Source: a virus
Direction: 5' to 3' (one strand)
DNA length: 39,817 nucleotides
IMG/VR virus record: IMGVR_UViG_3300036800_000137
Span: 1-39,817 of that record
Position 1 is the stretch's first letter. Every line of letters starts with the position of its first letter. Positions 907-39,817 of this stretch are shown piece after piece. Both the position numbers and the translations under genes were made by a program. The notes under the pieces are model-generated. The model saw only the letters and a list, made by a program, of their open reading frames with translations. It ran no database searches and was not told where the DNA came from.

Positions 907-1581
907 TTGAGGGATTTGACCGGGGGCGAGCACTCACGGCCAACCTTATCCCCGGATAAGAGAACCGGCCAGACTTCGCCAGTGGTCAATGTGACCCACA
1001 TGGCGGAGCTGCGCGTCGAGGACGCTGGCCACGAGCGCAGACCGCTGGTGAGCCTTACCCTGGACAAGCCTGACCAGCCCTTCGATGCCAGTGGTCAGTG
1101 GTGGGCCATTCGAACGCGTTCCCGCGCCGAACACGTCGTGGCCGACCGGCTGGCCGGGCAGGATTGCGATGTTTTCCTGCCGCGGTATCTGGAGCCCGTC
1201 GAGTGGTCGGATCGCGTGCATGAGACGCGGCGGCCGCTTTTTCCCGGTTACCTGTTCGCGCGACTGGATCCGCCGCAGAGGGAACGGGCGAACTGCACGC
1301 CGGGCGTGGCGCAGATTCTGGGGGAGCCCATCCCGGCCAGCCAGATCGAGAGCGTCCGGATCGCCGGCGCGGCCACCGGGCACATCACGCCATGCAGCTA
1401 CCGGACAGGGGACCTGGTGCGGATCGAGAGCGGCCCGCTGACGGGATGCATCGGACTGGTCGACCGGCCGTACAAAAACCGGCTGATCCTCCGGATCGAT
1501 CTGCTGCGGCGAGCCATATCGGTCGAGATCGACCGGAGCACACGACTCAGAAGCCTACGCATCACGACACCCGACAAATGA
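907..1581 (+). CDS. NusG/RfaH-like transcription elongation factor
   Basis: From about residue 64 the protein reads WWAIRTRSRAEHVVADRL, then FLPRY, then RRPLFPGYLFARLD. This is the signature of the NusG N-terminal (NGN) domain that binds RNA polymerase. A KOW-like segment follows (GDLVRIESGPLTGCIGLV), then VEID near the C-terminus. The arrangement resembles the specialised RfaH/UpxY paralogues more than housekeeping NusG. These factors suppress pausing or termination in particular operons, so a role in phage operon expression is likely but inferred. The start is unclear: TTG 907 or 916 would translate repeat copies B and F in one frame, while GTG 991 or ATG 1000 would include only F. The NGN domain begins directly after copy F, so the repeat forms the protein's N-terminal extension. 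It ends in an ATGA overlap with the next gene. Confidence 0.82.
   Translation: MRDLTGGEHSRPTLSPDKRTGQTSPVVNVTHMAELRVEDAGHERRPLVSLTLDKPDQPFDASGQWWAIRTRSRAEHVVADRLAGQDCDVFLPRYLEPVEWSDRVHETRRPLFPGYLFARLDPPQRERANCTPGVAQILGEPIPASQIESVRIAGAATGHITPCSYRTGDLVRIESGPLTGCIGLVDRPYKNRLILRIDLLRRAISVEIDRSTRLRSLRITTPDK
917..988 (+). repeat. Dyad repeat family, copy B
   Basis: This copy is exactly 72 bp. It begins TGACCGGGGG, has the palindrome CTTATCCCCGGATAAG at 945-960 and ends GCCAGTGGTCA at 988. It is open in the reading frame of the NusG-like gene (LSPDK), and lies either in its leader or in its extreme N-terminus. Confidence 0.88.
1026..1097 (+). repeat. Dyad repeat family, diverged copy F
   Basis: This 72-bp copy starts TGGCCACGAG, has a degenerate centre CTTACCCTGGACAAG (1054-1068, one base shorter) and ends with an intact GCCAGTGGTCA at 1097. 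It encodes LDKPDQPFDASGQ, close to the LSPDKADQPSDASGQ encoded by copy C inside the sigma factor. It abuts the conserved WWAIRTRSR start of the NGN domain, so it is coding here. Its divergence suggests an older insertion. Confidence 0.8.
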
Positions 1582-1730: not shown

Positions 1731-1876
1731 ACATATACAAAGTTAAAGCCGTTATCATGTGCCTCGCGCGGATCGCGCTGGTCGCTGCTTTCTGTGTTGC
1801 GGTCTACAGACACGACTGGATCACGGCAGGCCTCGCGCTCATCGCCGGCGTCGACGTGAAGATCGACGTCAAATAA
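1727..1876 (+). CDS. Small single-pass membrane protein (49 aa)
   Basis: ATG at 1727 overlaps the upstream stop (ATGA), and the TAA at 1874-1876 is followed immediately by the next ATG. The product starts MNIYKVKAVIMCLARIALVA and has one or two hydrophobic stretches (about residues 8-24 and 31-42), suggesting membrane insertion. Function is unknown. Its 5' end is less GC-rich than the neighbours. Confidence 0.55.
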   Translation: MNIYKVKAVIMCLARIALVAAFCVAVYRHDWITAGLALIAGVDVKIDVK

Positions 1877-2110
1877 ATGAGCCAGCGGCGCGCCAGGCCC
1901 CGGCTGATGCGGCGGCCCGAGAACGTCGAGGCCAGACGCGTCGCGGCGTGCATCGAAACGCCGGCCGATCTCGAAGAGATGCTGGCCAGCCTGCCGAACG
2001 ACAAGCAGCGAGCCAAAGCCGCGAACCTGCTTATGCCGCACCTGCCGCAGTTCATCTCGAAACGCGGGACACGCCTCGTGGTCCGCATTTCCGACGCCCC
2101 AGCACAGTGA
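1877..2110 (+). CDS. Hypothetical basic protein (77 aa)
   Basis: The gene begins one base after the preceding stop and ends in a GTGA overlap with the methyltransferase start. The product is basic at the N-terminus (SQRRARPRLMRRPE), with an amphipathic middle (ADLEEMLASLPNDKQRAKAANLLMPHLP). It resembles small proteins often found beside phage terminase or methylase genes, but I do not recognise a family. Confidence 0.6.
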   Translation: MSQRRARPRLMRRPENVEARRVAACIETPADLEEMLASLPNDKQRAKAANLLMPHLPQFISKRGTRLVVRISDAPAQ

Positions 2111-3471
2111 AGAAAAAACCCACCACCGAAGCCGGCCTGCTGGTCGAGTTGTGGCCGATTGACCGGCCGCGGCCCTACGAGAAGAACGCGCGCCGGCTGA
2201 GCGATCGCGCCGTGGACGTGCTGGCGGCGAGCCTGCGCGAATTCGGATGGCGGCAGCCCATCGTCGTGGACGCGGACGGCGTGATCATCGCCGGGCACAC
2301 GCGGCTGCTGGCCGCGCGGAAACTCGGCATGGAGACGGTCCCGGTACACGTGGCCACCGGCCTGACGCCGGCGCAGGTTCGCGCCTACCGGCTGATGGAC
2401 AACCGTTCGGCCGAAGAGACGTCGTGGGACGCCAGCCTGCTCGAGGAGGAGATCGCGGAACTGCAGCAGCTCGAGGCGGACCTGAGCCTGACCGGTTTCT
2501 CGGAATTCGAGCTCGAGAAGCTGCTGCAGGACAGCCCGAAAAGCGACGAGGACAGCGCGCCCGAGGCCCCGGCCATCGCCGTGAGCAGGCCTGGCGATAT
2601 GTGGCTATTGGGCAACCACAGGCTGCTGGCTGGCGACGCCACGGACACGGAAGCCGTGGCGCGGCTGATTGCCGGCAGGAAGGCGGATCTGGTGGTCACC
2701 GACCCCGCCGACCAGGTGGACGGGGAGGAGCCGGAAAGCGAAGAGGTCGCGACCGCGCTGGCGACGGAGCTGGCGACAGACGAGCGCGCAGACCTGGTTT
2801 TTACAGACCCGCCCTATAACGTCGATTACCAGGGCTACACGAAGAAGAAGCTGAAGATCCAGAAGGACAACATGACGCGCGAGGAGTTCGCGAAATTCCT
2901 GCGCGCCGCCTTCGCGAGCTACGCCGGCGCCATCAAGCCCGCGGCCAGCGTCTATGTTTGCCACGCCGCGATGAATCAGCGCGAGTTTCAGGACGCCATG
3001 GAAGCGGCCGGCCTCGAAGTGCGCTGCCAGATCATCTGGGCCAAGAATATTTTCGCCTGGGGATTCGGCCGCTACAAGTGGCAGCACGAGCCCATCTTCT
3101 ACGCCCACAAGCAGGGCACCCCGGACAAGTGGTTCGGCGACAAGACCCAGTCAACGCTGTGGCAGGCCGCGAAGCCGGCCGCGAACCGCATGCACCCCAC
3201 GATGAAGCCCATCGAGCTGATCGAGCATGCGCTCGAAAATTCGAGCCAGCCGGGCGGCGTCGTGCTCGATCTGTTCGGCGGATCCGGATCCACGCTGATC
3301 GCGTGCGAGAAGCACGGACGCCGGGCCCGGCTGATGGAGCTGGACCCGCGCTATGCCGACGTGATCGTCGTGCGCTGGGAGCAGTACACCGGCCGGAAGG
3401 CCCGGCTGGAGGACGGCCGCGAATTCGCGGACGTGGCGAAGGAGCGGGCGAATGCCGAAGACCGTACTTAA
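2107..3471 (+). CDS. ParB-domain DNA methyltransferase (N4/N6 type)
   Basis: The GTG at 2107 overlaps the upstream stop (GTGA). Residues about 10-110 form a ParB/Srx-like N-terminal domain (VVDADGVIIAGHTRLLAA, then LMDNRSAEE). The C-terminal part is an amino-methyltransferase of the beta-class order: the catalytic TDPPYN (motif IV) comes first, at about residue 234, and the cofactor-binding DLFGGSGST (motif I) later, at about residue 388. HPTMKP lies before motif I. Such enzymes methylate adenine or cytosine amino groups and usually protect phage DNA from host restriction. Oddly, motif IV is preceded 34 codons earlier by a defective copy (DLVVTDPAD at about 2689) separated by an acidic stretch, so the active-site region looks partly duplicated. 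The second copy is intact and activity is plausible. The gene leads directly into the packaging genes. Confidence 0.9.
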   Translation: MKKKPTTEAGLLVELWPIDRPRPYEKNARRLSDRAVDVLAASLREFGWRQPIVVDADGVIIAGHTRLLAARKLGMETVPVHVATGLTPAQVRAYRLMDNRSAEETSWDASLLEEEIAELQQLEADLSLTGFSEFELEKLLQDSPKSDEDSAPEAPAIAVSRPGDMWLLGNHRLLAGDATDTEAVARLIAGRKADLVVTDPADQVDGEEPESEEVATALATELATDERADLVFTDPPYNVDYQGYTKKKLKIQKDNMTREEFAKFLRAAFASYAGAIKPAASVYVCHAAMNQREFQDAMEAAGLEVRCQIIWAKNIFAWGFGRYKWQHEPIFYAHKQGTPDKWFGDKTQSTLWQAAKPAANRMHPTMKPIELIEHALENSSQPGGVVLDLFGGSGSTLIACEKHGRRARLMELDPRYADVIVVRWEQYTGRKARLEDGREFADVAKERANAEDRT

Positions 3472-10625: not shown

Positions 10626-10982
10626 ATGGAAAAGAAGGAATACGAATTTCAGGCTTACCCGAGCTGGCGCTATCACCGCGACGGGCGCGCCGTCATGATT
10701 CACGGCGACGAACACCACCAGGCTCTCGACGCCGAGGGATGGCGCGACACGCCGGCGGCGTTTTTGACCGTGGACGAAGACGAACAGGGCGCCTTGTCCA
10801 GAACGCGCGCCTGGTTGGCGTCATCTCCGGAGAAGAACGCCGATGTGGCCGCGCCAGCGGTCAATGCCAGCGACACGCCCGACACGGGCGACGAAGTCGC
10901 GACCGACGCGCCGGAAGAAGCTCCGGCTGCCGAGCATGATCTGGCGAAGGAAGCGCGCGCTAAAACCACGAAGCGGAAATAA
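10626..10982 (+). CDS. Hypothetical structural-cluster protein (118 aa)
   Basis: The product begins MEKKEYEFQAYPSWRYHRDG and continues GRAVMIHGDEHHQAL, then becomes Asp/Glu/Ala-rich and ends in a basic tail (KTTKRK). Small proteins of this style often sit between coat and head-completion genes. Start 10626 has CAGGAG upstream. The leader 10533-10625 is made of short echoes of TCAGC and GCTGATGGCTGG, resembling host-type intergenic repeats rather than phage coding DNA. Confidence 0.65.
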   Translation: MEKKEYEFQAYPSWRYHRDGRAVMIHGDEHHQALDAEGWRDTPAAFLTVDEDEQGALSRTRAWLASSPEKNADVAAPAVNASDTPDTGDEVATDAPEEAPAAEHDLAKEARAKTTKRK

Positions 10983-28894: not shown

Positions 28895-28970
28895 CCGCCG
28901 GAAAGATCGCCCGCGAAAGGCGACCATAAGGTAACGCAGTACCTCATTGTGATTGTTCCTCAATGCAGAA

Positions 28971-28997
28971 CCCGCCGGGCGCGCCGGCGGGTTTTTT
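28971..28997 (+). terminator. Strong intrinsic terminator
   Basis: Arms CCCGCCGG and CCGGCGGG pair perfectly around GCGCG, followed directly by six T (28992-28997). This is a textbook rho-independent terminator for the 26903-28894 operon. It lies ten bases before the recombinase start, so that gene must have its own transcription or rely on read-through. Confidence 0.93.
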
Positions 28998-29007
28998 AAT
29001 TGAACGC

Positions 29008-29643
29008 ATGCCACAACAACAACTGAACGCCGCCATGTACCTGCGCGTCTCGACCGACAAGCAGGACCACGCCATGCAGGCCACGGAGCTGAGAGAATTC
29101 GCCGGCCGCATGGGCTGGACCCTCCACGAATACGCGGACAAGATCAGCGGCACGAAGGCGCGGCGCCCCGGCCTCGACCGGCTGATGCAGGACGCGCGCA
29201 TGAAGAAGATCGACATCGTCATGGTCTGGAAGCTGGACCGCTTCGGCCGAACCCTGCGCGACCTCGTCGATAACATCCTCCAGCTCGACACATGGGGCGT
29301 GCGCTTCCTGGCCGTCACGCAATCGATCGACACCGACCAGAAGAACCCGACGTCCCGGCTGCTGCTGCACATCCTCGCGGCCGTGGCGGAATTCGAGCGC
29401 GAGCTGATCGTGGGCAGGGTGAAGGCCGGCCGGAAGCAGTATGAGACCGACTATGCGGCCGGCCGCGTGGGCAAGGAGACGCAGAGCCGCAGCGGGAAGA
29501 ACCTCGCGCCCCACCGGCCGCAGAAGATCTTCCGGCGCGACCGGGCCGCGGAGATGAAGGCGGCCGGCATGAGCCTGCGCGCCATCGCGCGCGAGCTGGG
29601 CGTCCCCCATACGACTGTCGCGGACGCGCTCCGATCCAGATAA
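29008..29643 (+). CDS. Small serine recombinase (resolvase/invertase type)
   Basis: The 211-residue protein has the catalytic segment AAMYLRVSTDKQDHAMQ (nucleophile Ser in RVS), then ISGTKARRPGLDRLMQDAR, VMVWKLDRFGRTLRDLV and AAVAEFERELIVGRVKAG. It ends in a helix-turn-helix (GMSLRAIARELGVPHTTVAD). Length and domain order match small resolvases and invertases, not large serine integrases. The ATG at 29008 is chosen because the longer frame would begin inside the terminator. No strong RBS is visible. It could resolve multimers, invert DNA or integrate the genome. A 26-bp near-palindrome 117 bases downstream is a candidate crossover site. Confidence 0.93.
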   Translation: MPQQQLNAAMYLRVSTDKQDHAMQATELREFAGRMGWTLHEYADKISGTKARRPGLDRLMQDARMKKIDIVMVWKLDRFGRTLRDLVDNILQLDTWGVRFLAVTQSIDTDQKNPTSRLLLHILAAVAEFERELIVGRVKAGRKQYETDYAAGRVGKETQSRSGKNLAPHRPQKIFRRDRAAEMKAAGMSLRAIARELGVPHTTVADALRSR

Positions 29644-32554: not shown

Positions 32555-32844
32555 TTGCTGGGGTTACGCGCGCGCCGGAAACGCGCTGTATCGAATGCGG
32601 CTGTCGCATGGACGCGATCGGGACCGCGGACGGATCGGACGCCGCGCCGATCCCGAACGAGAGCATGGCCGTGTGTCTGAAATGCGGCGCGATCCACATG
32701 GTCGGCGAGGGCCTGAAACTGCGCCCGCTGACCATCGCCGAGCGCGCAAAACTCGCGCACGACAAGGAGCAGATGCGCGAGCTGCGCAAGATGCAGCGCG
32801 CCGTGCATTTCGCGCGGGCGAGCCATGCGGCTAAGGTGAACTGA
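32551..32844 (+). CDS. Zinc-ribbon phage protein (97 aa)
   Basis: Two Cys pairs, CIECGCRMDAIG and VCLKCGAIHMVG, form a zinc ribbon. A helical charged tail follows (LTIAERAKLAHDKEQMRELR). Small proteins of this form are common in phages and may bind nucleic acid. The stop overlaps the HNH start by one base (TGATG). Confidence 0.75.
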   Translation: MIAGVTRAPETRCIECGCRMDAIGTADGSDAAPIPNESMAVCLKCGAIHMVGEGLKLRPLTIAERAKLAHDKEQMRELRKMQRAVHFARASHAAKVN

Positions 32845-33209
32845 TGCCCATCCGCACTGAACTCCGCCCCCTGTACGGCCGCACCTGGCGGCGCTTTCGC
32901 GCGGCCGTGATCGCGGTTCACGGGGTGCGCTGCAGCCGCTGCGGGCGCGCCTGCCCGCGTTACCTCAACTTCGCCCACCGCTACCACGATCCGGCGCATT
33001 CGGGCGTGATCGACCGGCTTTGCGCCAGTTGCCACTCGAAGCAGGACGCGCGGCATTCCTACGCGGTGCGCCGGCGATCACGGGCGCGGCGGACGGGTCA
33101 ATTGTGGCTGATGCCCGAGCTGGAGTATGCGCCGTACGCGGCGAGCGAGATTCCGCCGCGCGTGCTCGCGGCGCTGCGGGCGGCCGCGCAGAGAGGGTTA
33201 TTTGAGTGA
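32844..33209 (+). CDS. HNH endonuclease-like protein
   Basis: The 121-residue product has CSRCGRACPRYLNFAHRYHD, with a zinc-binding Cys pair and the AH histidine of an HNH core, followed by CASCHSKQDARHSYAVRRR, the second Cys pair and histidine. This is a compact HNH module. In phages such proteins may act in packaging or as free-standing homing nucleases. Here it lies far from the terminase and within an early cluster. The exact catalytic triad cannot be confirmed by eye. Confidence 0.8.
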   Translation: MPIRTELRPLYGRTWRRFRAAVIAVHGVRCSRCGRACPRYLNFAHRYHDPAHSGVIDRLCASCHSKQDARHSYAVRRRSRARRTGQLWLMPELEYAPYAASEIPPRVLAALRAAAQRGLFE

Positions 33210-37158: not shown

Positions 37159-37731
37159 TCATCTCGCCGGAAACGACCGCTCGAGCGCGGCGCGCAAAAT
37201 CCGCCAGCGCGGCCGGCCGCCCCGCGACACGTCAACGGCATAGCCGATGGGCGCGAGATCCGGCGCATGCCGGCGCAGGAACGCGGCGGGCAAGCCGGAA
37301 AAAGCGGCCGCTTCGGAAATCGAAAGCCATGGTTTCGCCGGCGGCGCCGGCGGGGCGGCGAGCAACTGCGCCAGCCGCTCGAGCGCCGCGCCGGCGGGAG
37401 CGGCCGGGGCTGCCGGGAGAATCGCCTTCGATTCCTGCGTCTCGGGTTCCCCCGATGCGACCGCGCCGGCATCGTTTGATCCCGCCGCCGGCCGCTTCTC
37501 GACGACGGGATAGTAATTCGGCGTTCCGGCTTTGATCGCCTCGACATCCTCGCGTGAAAAAAGCACGGGCGCGGCCGTCTGATGCGGCTGGCGCGGTTCG
37601 CGGCGCGTGCGGATCTTCCCCGCCGCGGCCTGGCGCTCGATCTGACGTTCGCCTACGCCGAGCAGGCGTGCGGCGTCGCGTTTCGACAGCCATTCTGCGT
37701 TATTTGGGTGCAATTCGGACTCAGGGGACAT
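37159..37731 (-). CDS. Helix-turn-helix regulator, minus strand
   Basis: From ATG 37731 the 190-residue protein has an N-terminal MerR/excisionase-like HTH (EWLSKRDAARLLGVGERQIE, then RQAAAGKIRTRREPRQPHQT), FSREDVEAIK, an Ala/Pro linker and a second HTH-like segment (PWLSISEAAAFSGLPAAFLR). It is the only minus-strand regulator opposite the sigma-factor gene, so it is a good candidate for the repressor or switch protein. An in-frame ATG at 37779 would add 16 residues. The sequence around both ATGs is nearly the same (see the leader entry). Confidence 0.75.
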   Translation of the reverse strand: MSPESELHPNNAEWLSKRDAARLLGVGERQIERQAAAGKIRTRREPRQPHQTAAPVLFSREDVEAIKAGTPNYYPVVEKRPAAGSNDAGAVASGEPETQESKAILPAAPAAPAGAALERLAQLLAAPPAPPAKPWLSISEAAAFSGLPAAFLRRHAPDLAPIGYAVDVSRGGRPRWRILRAALERSFPAR

Positions 37732-37846
37732 AAGGCCAGGATAGCGCGACTTTCGAGGTCGCGACCGCGCTCCCGACATAAGGCAGGATTTAAAGCGATA
37801 TCAATTAACGTACTAAAAAATACAAAAGAGCGTGTCAATATAGCTT
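37732..37846. promoter_or_regulatory. Divergent leader of the HTH regulator and sigma factor
   Basis: On the minus strand a perfect TTGACA (37833-37838) and TAGTAC (37810-37815) are 17 bases apart and drive the HTH regulator. GACATAAGGC(C)AGGAT occurs twice, at 37727-37742 and 37775-37789, each overlapping a possible minus-strand ATG. A GGTCGCGACC palindrome lies at 37758-37767 between them. These are likely operator or duplicated start sites. Confidence 0.6.
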
Positions 37847-38548
37847 GTGCGTTCTACTGCCACAACCCTTGCCACGACCGGCCGGAAGCAGCCGGAGCCG
37901 GCGCGCTTTTGCAACGATCGTTGCCAACCGCCGACCCCGATCGACAGCGGCGACCACCGCGATCGCGTCCGCGAAAAACGGGACGAACTGGTCGATGCCT
38001 ACACGCCAATGGTGCGGCGGGTCGCCGAGCGCCTGAAGACTTTCCTTCCCCCGTGCTTCGAGCTGGACGACCTGATCCAGACCGGCCTGATGGCCCTGCT
38101 TCGCGCCGCGCCGCGATATCGACCTGACCACGGGCGAAGCGAAAAGGAGACCTTATCCCCGGATAAGGCTGACCAGCCGTCTGACGCCAGTGGTCAACAT
38201 GGCGGCGCCCCGTTTGGCCCGTATGCGAGGAAAGTGGCGCGGGGCGCGATGCTCGACAGCATCCGCGGCCGCCATTACCGCGACGCCACCGCGCTGCCCA
38301 TCGGCGCCGGCATCGACGTGGCCGAGAGGCCGTCCATCGATGAGGCGATCGACCGGCGGCGCGAACTCGCCCGGGTGGACGATGCCATCGAATACCTCGA
38401 GCCGAGGCGGCGCAGCATCATCCGCGCCTGGTACCGGGAGGGAGCCACGCTCGAGACGGCGAGCGCGGAGGTCGGCTTGTCAAAATCGCACACGCACGAG
38501 CTGGCGCACGATGCGCTCGCGCGCCTGCGCCTGATCCTGCACGCCTGA
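37847..38548 (+). CDS. Sigma-70-family RNA polymerase sigma factor with repeat insertion
   Basis: The 233-residue protein has region 2 (TPMVRRVAERLKTFLPPCFE, LDDLIQTGLMALLRAAPRY, then FGPYARKVARGAMLDSIRGR) and region 4 (LARVDDAIEYLEPRRRSIIR, then TLETASAEVGLSKSHTHELA), the order of FliA/SigB-like factors. Between RPDHG and PFGPYA, which are usually adjacent, lie about 23 extra residues encoded by repeat copy C. The factor probably redirects host polymerase to phage promoters. The start is GTG 37847, because TAG lies just upstream in frame. The leader peptide is not conserved-looking. The stop TGA is itself the first three bases of repeat D. Confidence 0.87.
   Translation: MRSTATTLATTGRKQPEPARFCNDRCQPPTPIDSGDHRDRVREKRDELVDAYTPMVRRVAERLKTFLPPCFELDDLIQTGLMALLRAAPRYRPDHGRSEKETLSPDKADQPSDASGQHGGAPFGPYARKVARGAMLDSIRGRHYRDATALPIGAGIDVAERPSIDEAIDRRRELARVDDAIEYLEPRRRSIIRAWYREGATLETASAEVGLSKSHTHELAHDALARLRLILHA
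38125..38196 (+). repeat. Dyad repeat family, copy C, inside the sigma-factor gene
   Basis: Exactly 72 bp. Left arm TGACCACGGG at 38125, palindrome CTTATCCCCGGATAAG at 38152-38167, right arm GCCAGTGGTCA ending at 38196. It is in frame and encodes RSEKETLSPDKADQPSDASG within region 2 of the sigma factor. The host codons GACCACGG are echoed after the element as CAACATGG, as if the element carried or duplicated its target. Confidence 0.92.
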
Positions 38549-38658
38549 CCACTTGCGCCGTCGCCCGGTCCACTTATCCGGGGCTGACCACTGGCTTTGT
38601 CCCCCGGTCCACTTATCCCTGGATAAGGCCTGGCCATCTCGTCTCTGACTGGGGTCAG
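38546..38658 (+). repeat. Dyad repeat family, composite copy D
   Basis: A 39-bp partial unit (TGACCACTTG ... CTTATCCGGGGC, 38546-38584) is followed by a full unit (TGACCACTGG at 38585, CTTATCCCTGGATAAG at 38612-38627, CTGGGGTCA ending 38657). 38573-38658 matches 39258-39343 of copy E at 84 of 86 positions. CGCCTGGGTCAAAA follows at 38675, as after copy E. It begins at the sigma-factor stop codon. Confidence 0.92.
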
Positions 38659-38724
38659 GCCTGATGTTCGTCTTCGCCTGGGTCAAAAGACCGGAAATGG
38701 CGCGCGGCCGAACCGACTGATGGT

Positions 38725-39132
38725 TTGGCAGCGAAAAAGACAGCAGCAGCAGCAGCGGAAGCCCGACCGGATCCGCTGGCAACGCTTGCCGATGAACTCG
38801 GCGCGATCGAGAAGGAGCTGGCGCCGTTCGCCGGCAAAATCAAGCGGCAAGAGGCGATCCGGAAGGACATCCGCGCCAAAGCGCCCGACTCGCAGGACCA
38901 GATCGTGGGCGAGCGGTTCGTGGTCGAGCTGGGCGAGCGCGGCCTCGAAACCACTGCTGACTTCCCCGCCCTGGTCAAAAAGATCGGCGCGGAGGCCTTC
39001 GCGAAATTCGCCACCGCGAAGCTGAAGGCGCTCCATGCCAACGTCAAGCCCGGCATCCTCGCGTTTTTCCTGAAGAGTGAACGCACCGGGCCCCGCTCGC
39101 TGAAGGTGCTGGAGAAGGGCCAGGTCGCGTGA
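38725..39132 (+). CDS. Hypothetical early protein between repeats D and E (135 aa)
   Basis: A TTG at 38725 starts a product with MAAKKTAAAAAEARPDPLAT, then LADELGAIEKELAPFAGKIK and a second half VGERFVVELGERGLETTADF, ALHANVKPGILAFFLKSERT. The helical N-terminus plus compact C-terminus is vaguely like phage nuclease-inhibitor or Gp157-type proteins, but the similarity is too weak to name. It is flanked by near-identical 86-bp repeat segments. It ends in a GTGA overlap. Confidence 0.65.
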   Translation: MAAKKTAAAAAEARPDPLATLADELGAIEKELAPFAGKIKRQEAIRKDIRAKAPDSQDQIVGERFVVELGERGLETTADFPALVKKIGAEAFAKFATAKLKALHANVKPGILAFFLKSERTGPRSLKVLEKGQVA

Positions 39133-39215
39133 AGGATCTGAACTGCCTTCTGCGCACGGCCCTGCTGGTGGCGTTGCGGTTCATGCTCTACGGGCGCGGC
39201 CCAGGCGGCCGATGA
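39129..39215 (+). CDS. Very small hydrophobic protein (28 aa)
   Basis: GTG 39129 overlaps the upstream stop, and TGA 39213-39215 overlaps the ATG of the next frame. The product reads KDLNCLLRTALLVALRFMLY, then GRGPGGR, and could be a tiny membrane peptide. Its main support is its place in a chain of four-base overlaps. Confidence 0.4.
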   Translation: MKDLNCLLRTALLVALRFMLYGRGPGGR

Positions 39216-39397
39216 CGGAGCCGATCCTCCTGACCACTGGCGCAGCCTTGTTGGTCTCTTATCCGGGGCTGACCACTGGCTTTGTCCCTCGGTCCACTTA
39301 TCCCCGGATAAGGCCTGGCCATCTCGTCTCTGACTGGGGTCAGCCTGACCGCCGGTTCTGCGCCTGGGTCAAAATCGGGCGGTTCCTCGGCCTGTGA
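39212..39397 (+). CDS. ORF made mostly of repeat E (61 aa)
   Basis: ATG 39212 overlaps the previous stop (ATGA), and its own stop overlaps the next start (GTGA at 39394). About 113 of its 186 bases are repeat copy E, giving LLTTGAALLVSYPGLTTGFV and STYPRIRPGHLVSDWGQPD. The element is read in a different frame from copies B, C and F. Coupling at both ends suggests translation, perhaps only to keep ribosomes moving to the next gene. Confidence 0.45.
   Translation: MTEPILLTTGAALLVSYPGLTTGFVPRSTYPRIRPGHLVSDWGQPDRRFCAWVKIGRFLGL
39231..39343 (+). repeat. Dyad repeat family, composite copy E
   Basis: A 39-bp partial unit (TGACCACTGG ... CTTATCCGGGGC, 39231-39269) is followed by a full 73-bp unit: TGACCACTGG at 39270, CTTATCCCCGGATAAG at 39297-39312, CTGGGGTCA ending 39342. 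The composite structure is the same as D, 685 bp away, so D and E arose by duplication or conversion of a composite unit. Confidence 0.92.
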
Positions 39398-39618: not shown

Positions 39619-39817
39619 CCGAAGAAGCGGTGCGCTATCTCGCGAGCGAGAAGTGCGCGGTCTGCCACGGATACGGCCGTCGCCGTCTGCGCAGCATGTC
39701 GGCGTGCGGATGCGTGTTCCGGAGCGTGGCGCGCATCTCGATCAACGAACTGCATCGCCTCCGGAGGGAAGGACCGCACTGGCACTTCAAGCGCTGGACC
39801 CGTGACGCCGAGTATGC
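39615..39817 (+). CDS. 5' part of the gene that wraps the contig ends
   Basis: GTG 39615 opens the frame that continues as bases 1-476. The N-terminus is MTEEAVRYLASEKCAVCHGY, with the CxxC pair followed by a CGC. It overlaps the preceding stop by four bases. The right-end copy encodes KRWTRDAEYA where the left end encodes KRFSRDAEYA, so two alleles of the gene are present. Confidence 0.8.
   Translation, partial: MTEEAVRYLASEKCAVCHGYGRRRLRSMSACGCVFRSVARISINELHRLRREGPHWHFKRWTRDAEY
39631..39817. repeat. Terminal redundancy, right copy
   Basis: Matches 1-187 with six mismatches. See the left-copy entry. The contig closes to a circle of about 39,630 bp. Confidence 0.9.

Follow-up and report, generated by a model that had tools for sequence, protein, structure and literature searches.

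The virus record analysed here (39.8 kb; 65% G+C), whose whole 39,817-nt stretch we call the window, carries six clear copies and one decayed copy of a nested palindrome of 69-75 nt, TGACCACNGG...CTTATCCNNGGATAAG...CCNGTGGTCA. Copies of the same family also lie in bacterial genomes of a single lineage, and the repeat is very probably a palindromic element, non-autonomous and dispersed, that preserves the reading frame and belongs to a Bryobacterales (Acidobacteriota) lineage and to phages sharing DNA with it. The evidence comes from sites found both filled and empty, from the reading frame that the copies keep inside genes, and from the narrow range of hosts in which they are found.

The Element and Its Copies in the Phage

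The record belongs to a P22-like soil phage, with portal, scaffold, head and head-closure genes. Its two ends (39631-39817 and 1-187) share 187 bp at 96.8% identity (6 mismatches). This makes it reasonable to join them into a circle, and the molecule on record is probably either circular or terminally redundant, with variation between strains. On the closed circle, copies A-F lie within about 2.6 kb around a sigma-factor gene and a NusG-like gene, as an earlier sequence-only reading of the window had proposed, and all are on the same strand. Other genes of possible interest in the phage encode a small serine recombinase (28963-29643), an HNH endonuclease (32844-33209) and a DNA methyltransferase with a ParB domain (1759-3471).

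An alignment of the six window copies with four from outside gives the consensus TGACC(A)CNGGCG, about 16 nt, CTTATCCNNGGATAAG, about 18 nt and CGCCNGTGGTCA. The termini are inverted repeats, TGACCACTGG/CCAGTGGTCA (end motifs also given as TGACCACTGGCGCAG/CTGCGCCAGTGGTCA), and these repeats, together with the potential for a long hairpin, are present across the family. In the window, the arm TGACCACTGG has 11 matches with at most one mismatch against 1.09 expected, nine of them within the six copies, and the centre CTTATCCCCGGATAAG, searched on both strands with up to three mismatches, has 12 against 0.07 expected, all within copies. The six copies of the sequence-only reading thus exist, with outer arms conserved beyond chance and the left arm 27-28 nt from the palindrome as described. 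Its finer description needs amendment. The outer arms had been given as one decamer, which is exact in only some copies, with variants such as TGACCACGGG, TGACCGGGGG and TGACCCAGGC elsewhere; and the centre, although its matches are far above chance, has decayed in copy F to 15 nt (CTTACCCTGGACAAG).

All copies in the window are on the plus strand. Copy A (71 nt; 509-579; 60.4 bits) lies between the gene at 66-476 and a gene whose ATG begins at 579, and it reads ATG ACC CAG ... LSPDK ... TGA, ending in an ATGA overlap with the next start codon. The NusG-like transcription factor ORF (907-1581, plus strand; PF02357; phrog_6386) holds two copies upstream of its domain: copy B (72 nt; 917-988; 67.9 bits), in the 5' extension of the ORF and in the LSPDK frame, and copy F (72 nt; 1026-1097; 53.4 bits), in frame in its N-terminal part (LTLDKPDQPFDASGQ). 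The sigma-70-family gene (37847-38548, plus strand) contains copy C (72 nt; 38125-38196; 68.7 bits) in frame within sigma-70 region 2. The copies had been placed around these two genes, which describes the window correctly, but three of them are intragenic: C within the sigma gene, B and F within the NusG-like ORF.

D and E, which had been taken for single copies, do contain the element but are compounds whose outer right arm, TCTKCGCCTGGGTCA (38671-38685 and 39357-39371), had been overlooked. Compound D (38546-38685) begins on the sigma stop codon and consists of an inner element (38585-38657) between a left outer half (38546-38584) and a right one (38658-38685); compound E (39231-39371) has its inner element at 39270-39342 and its outer halves at 39231-39269 and 39343-39371. 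Both inner elements are 73 nt long, and over 115 nt D and E are 89% identical. Each of the two gives the appearance of one element having inserted into another, and the same nesting is found in the viral contig L017. The other 37 kb had been described as free of copies, which is nearly right: one decayed and enlarged copy (10763-10865; 36.5 bits, E 4e-5) lies within the ORF at 10626-10982 (...SSPEKNADVAAPAVNA).

The RNA of copies B, C and F folds better than shuffled sequences (z -2.9 to -3.9), and the element may well form a cruciform or hairpin. Base-pair covariation is not above that of shuffles, which is uninformative because the pairs hardly vary. Rfam holds no curated family that matches the element.

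Distribution Across Phages and Bacteria

A pattern scan of IMG/VR returned one contig (L006), in which the element lies in an IS1380-like transposase, and a looser scan added L017. A scan of species genomes found a metagenome-assembled genome (MAG) of Bryobacterales (genome G002, L011) as well as contig C283 (L010; 24.9 kb), which is binned in a Streptosporangiaceae MAG. C283 (JAFARZ010000225.1; L060/L061) carries five copies, mostly at positions other than those in the window, and its sigma gene, HTH gene and several other genes are homologous to those of the window phage and similarly ordered. Since the remainder of the Streptosporangiaceae MAG has no convincing copy, C283 is probably a phage contig that was misbinned there. 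In both phages, the N-terminus of an HTH/excisionase-like protein (window 37159-37779; L060:6582-7262) may hold an old copy: that of C283 contains a clear element (KKSSYPGI), and the window protein has SRYPGL at the aligned place with no profile match.

Covariance models were built from 10 copies (R1) and from 21 copies (R2); because some R1 matches went into R2, the R2 scores of those copies cannot count as independent evidence, whereas its matches in new genomes and the contrast across the phylum can. With R2, matches were found in 15 of the 257 genomes of G002's order, at most 16 per genome with both strands counted, and 9 of the 19 genomes of G002's genus carry the element; across the phylum, G002 is alone among 297 genomes drawn. 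The profile search that the sequence-only reading had called for yielded the relative phage contig, two more viral contigs and 15 genomes of one order, and the random spread through unrelated DNA that would have spoken against a distinct element was not seen: other viral and bacterial contigs totalling 380 kb, the majority picked because they hold the palindrome, scored at most 18.5 bits, against about 30-77 for the family. Plasmids gave no match. A match in Salipaludibacillus (L009; 15.2 bits), whose arms do not match, looks like chance, and so does a GC-rich match in G027 (L132).

Copies are far denser in phages than in the chromosome, with 7 in 40 kb, 5 in 25 kb and 5 in 12 kb against 5 in 6.6 Mb, so that phage density exceeds that of the host chromosome more than 100-fold. 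They lie in either orientation inside unrelated genes, including bacterial genes for a transposase, an integrase, a glycosyltransferase and an anthranilate-synthase-like protein; proximity to sigma and NusG-like genes is not common to the family. In G212 (L104, L094-L105) and G081 (L123-L125) the element forms part of a longer repeat whose flanks, 10-40 nt in length, are conserved. At locus L113 (G197:C366 2700-5447), a 5.4 kb contig has four copies, in both orientations, packed into 1.2 kb.

Filled and Empty Sites

Comparison with relatives, another step that had been proposed, brought out empty sites in four filled/empty pairs. In each, 7 nt are replaced by 70 or 73 nt, a net gain of 63 or 66 nt and thus a multiple of three in all four, and none of the four sites shows a target-site duplication. 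The closest pair is formed by IS4-like transposase paralogs of G002, where the copy on C134 has 73 nt in place of 7 nt in the same-genome paralog on C99; the two are 81-91% identical on the two sides, and five homologs from other genomes agree. At copy C, the window has 73 nt and both C283 and L007 have 7 nt (net +66 nt, 22 amino acids), and in a tyrosine integrase of G079, 70 nt stand against 7 nt in a relative from G081; in these two cases the relatives are distant and the 7-nt figure may be off by about 1 nt. The fourth pair is the nested copy of L017, with 70 nt against 7 nt in an un-nested copy on the same contig.

The proteins tell the same story. The 22 residues of the window sigma factor are absent from its counterparts in C283 (46% identical) and L007 (42%), and solved FliA structures align with it to residue 97-98 and resume from 120. 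For the integrase, alignments to XerA and to an XerC-like structure break at the insertion as well. The anthranilate-synthase-like gene of G212 carries a longer, composite insertion of about 60 residues, a stretch missing from 24 family homologs, whose alignments break around it. For the NusG-like protein and the genes at 66-476 and 10626-10982, no relatives were found in IMG/VR.

Reading Frame and Predicted Effect on the Protein

Inside genes, the centre is mostly read as L-S-x-D-K, as in window copies A, B and C, three copies of C283, L006 and L017 (10152), all of them read on the element's own strand; copy F gives L-T-L-D-K. L062 is read from the opposite strand and, the centre being palindromic, likewise yields L-S-G-D-K. 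Other reading frames are used at L104 (the G212 copy) and L106/L107 (the integrase copies). The element is stop-free in several frames, and insertions within genes are therefore survivable at net gains that are multiples of three.

In an AlphaFold model of the sigma factor (shallow alignment, mean pLDDT 64), residues 91-122 form a low-confidence coil between confident helices at 73-90 and 123-148. The predicted coil agrees with a tolerated loop, and the carrier proteins probably still work.

Subfamilies and Probable Movement

The window phage and C283 share genes and differ in most of their insertion sites: C283 lacks copy C, and its copies at 3007, 8917, 9753 and 16132 matched no window counterparts at the same places. 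For 35 of 65 copies the nearest neighbour comes from the same genome, against 5.1 with shuffled labels, and subfamilies therefore expand within genomes. The nearest neighbour of window copy C (80%) is a chromosomal copy of G002, which links the phage to the host lineage.

We propose that the element inserts at many unrelated places, exchanging about 7 nt of target for 70 or 73 nt, and that insertions into genes persist where the net gain is divisible by three. A carrier protein then acquires a loop or an N-terminal extension of about 21-24 residues with a core that is mostly L-S-x-D-K. Mobilisation would occur in trans, and the element presumably moves as a mobile element served by a trans-acting enzyme; its effect on the carrier is likely to be selfish or near-neutral.

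Alternative Explanations

The clustering of A-F on one strand within about 2.6 kb around the sigma and NusG-like genes, and the better-than-shuffled RNA folds of B, C and F, could be read as marks of a phage transcription-control site (a promoter, an antitermination site or a hairpin responsive to NusG or sigma) repeated near early genes. Similarly, the serine recombinase (28963-29643) and the ParB-domain methyltransferase encoded by the phage, and the resemblance of TTATCC to DnaA boxes, would suit a phage site for recombination, replication or partition, such as a serine invertase site, an origin or a ParB-like site. The sequence-only reading had listed a promoter, an antitermination site, an origin and a partition site among its options, and we reject control site, origin and partition site alike because copies sit in host genes of many kinds. 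A control site, very improbable on these grounds, would also have to account for the different places of copies in the relative phage C283, their occurrence on either strand and the absence of an Rfam match, and a fixed recombination or partition site is more improbable still, given in-frame insertions into host metabolic and transposase genes with 7 nt replaced. The option of a dispersed palindromic element resembling those of Rickettsia, which the same reading had also raised, is supported by the filled and empty sites and the copies in host genomes.

Two kinds of mobile repeat come closer, and we regard each of them as unlikely. REP/REPIN-like elements moved by a Y1 (RAYT/TIRYT) transposase typically show short palindromes, compounds and subfamilies specific to a genome; TIRYT genes are known in Acidobacteria (PMC3733652), and six of the seven element-bearing genomes tested encode Y1 transposases. 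Yet the element is absent from the surrounding 3 kb or so at all 12 Y1 loci of the host genomes, no Y1 match reached the threshold in G077, a genome that bears the element, the consensus lacks a GTAG or CGTC tag, and the copies studied are often intragenic. No mobilising enzyme was found. If the element were instead a MITE descended from a DDE insertion sequence, that would suit its terminal inverted repeats (TGACCACTGG/CCAGTGGTCA), its dispersal, its non-autonomy and its nested copies, but an ordinary DDE MITE does not fit because about 7 nt are replaced, with no target-site duplication, at the four filled/empty sites. Among the loci examined, moreover, no parent insertion sequence bounded by these repeats was seen.

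Relation to Known Palindromic Elements

To our knowledge, Rickettsia supplies most known examples of elements that enter protein genes time after time and yet spare them; the mode of movement and spread of the Rickettsia palindromic elements (RPEs), described in 2000, has so far as we know stayed open since. RPEs are 105-146 nt long and occur in frame within unrelated genes, where they code for a conserved peptide that the protein tolerates; one carrier enzyme was shown to stay active (PMC10969869, PMC2229807). The present element resembles them in being a short, dispersed palindromic repeat that lies in frame in unrelated genes and encodes a conserved peptide. However, at 69-75 nt, the length seen at filled sites and in most single copies, it is about half as long, it is a nested double palindrome with a 7-nt replacement, and it belongs to a GC-rich Acidobacteriota host and is dense in phages; the likeness drawn here is one of behaviour. 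Of the features that mark RPEs, inverted repeats with a hairpin, in-frame insertion and a peptide frame are found, and a length of about 105-150 nt is not. By this analogy the element appears to work like an RPE, yet with about half the length and an unrelated host it is not filed as one.

REP/REPIN elements with RAYTs, and TIR families with TIRYTs, are likewise small palindromic repeats that form genome-specific families and compounds (PMC3733652), but the present element lacks their GTAG/CGTC tag, is not a 20-40 bp unit, is frequently inside genes and is not near Y1 transposase genes (12 loci). MITEs such as Correia/NEMIS, ERIC and RUP share terminal inverted repeats and non-autonomy, and some form in-frame fusions (PMC2229807); the present element differs in being shorter and in lacking a target-site duplication. 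Inverted repeats inside protein-coding genes are also known from the mitochondria of Nematomorpha, where they are long and perfect with arms up to 142 bp, whereas the present copies are short, imperfect and members of one dispersed family (PMC6649704). In the papers searched on palindromic elements in Bryobacterales or Acidobacteria, we found no description of the present element. It is possible, as a tentative reading that we hold to be rather less than even in likelihood, that it represents an undescribed class of gene-invading palindromic element that replaces about 7 nt with no target-site duplication and is spread by phages between Acidobacteria.

The finding extends RPE-like behaviour to free-living soil bacteria of a different phylum, where phages carry the element densely and could plausibly serve as its vehicles. 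Its insertion signature, the replacement of about 7 nt, is a constraint on any mechanism that may be proposed. Finally, insertion into a phage sigma factor and a NusG-like ORF may add loops to regulatory proteins.
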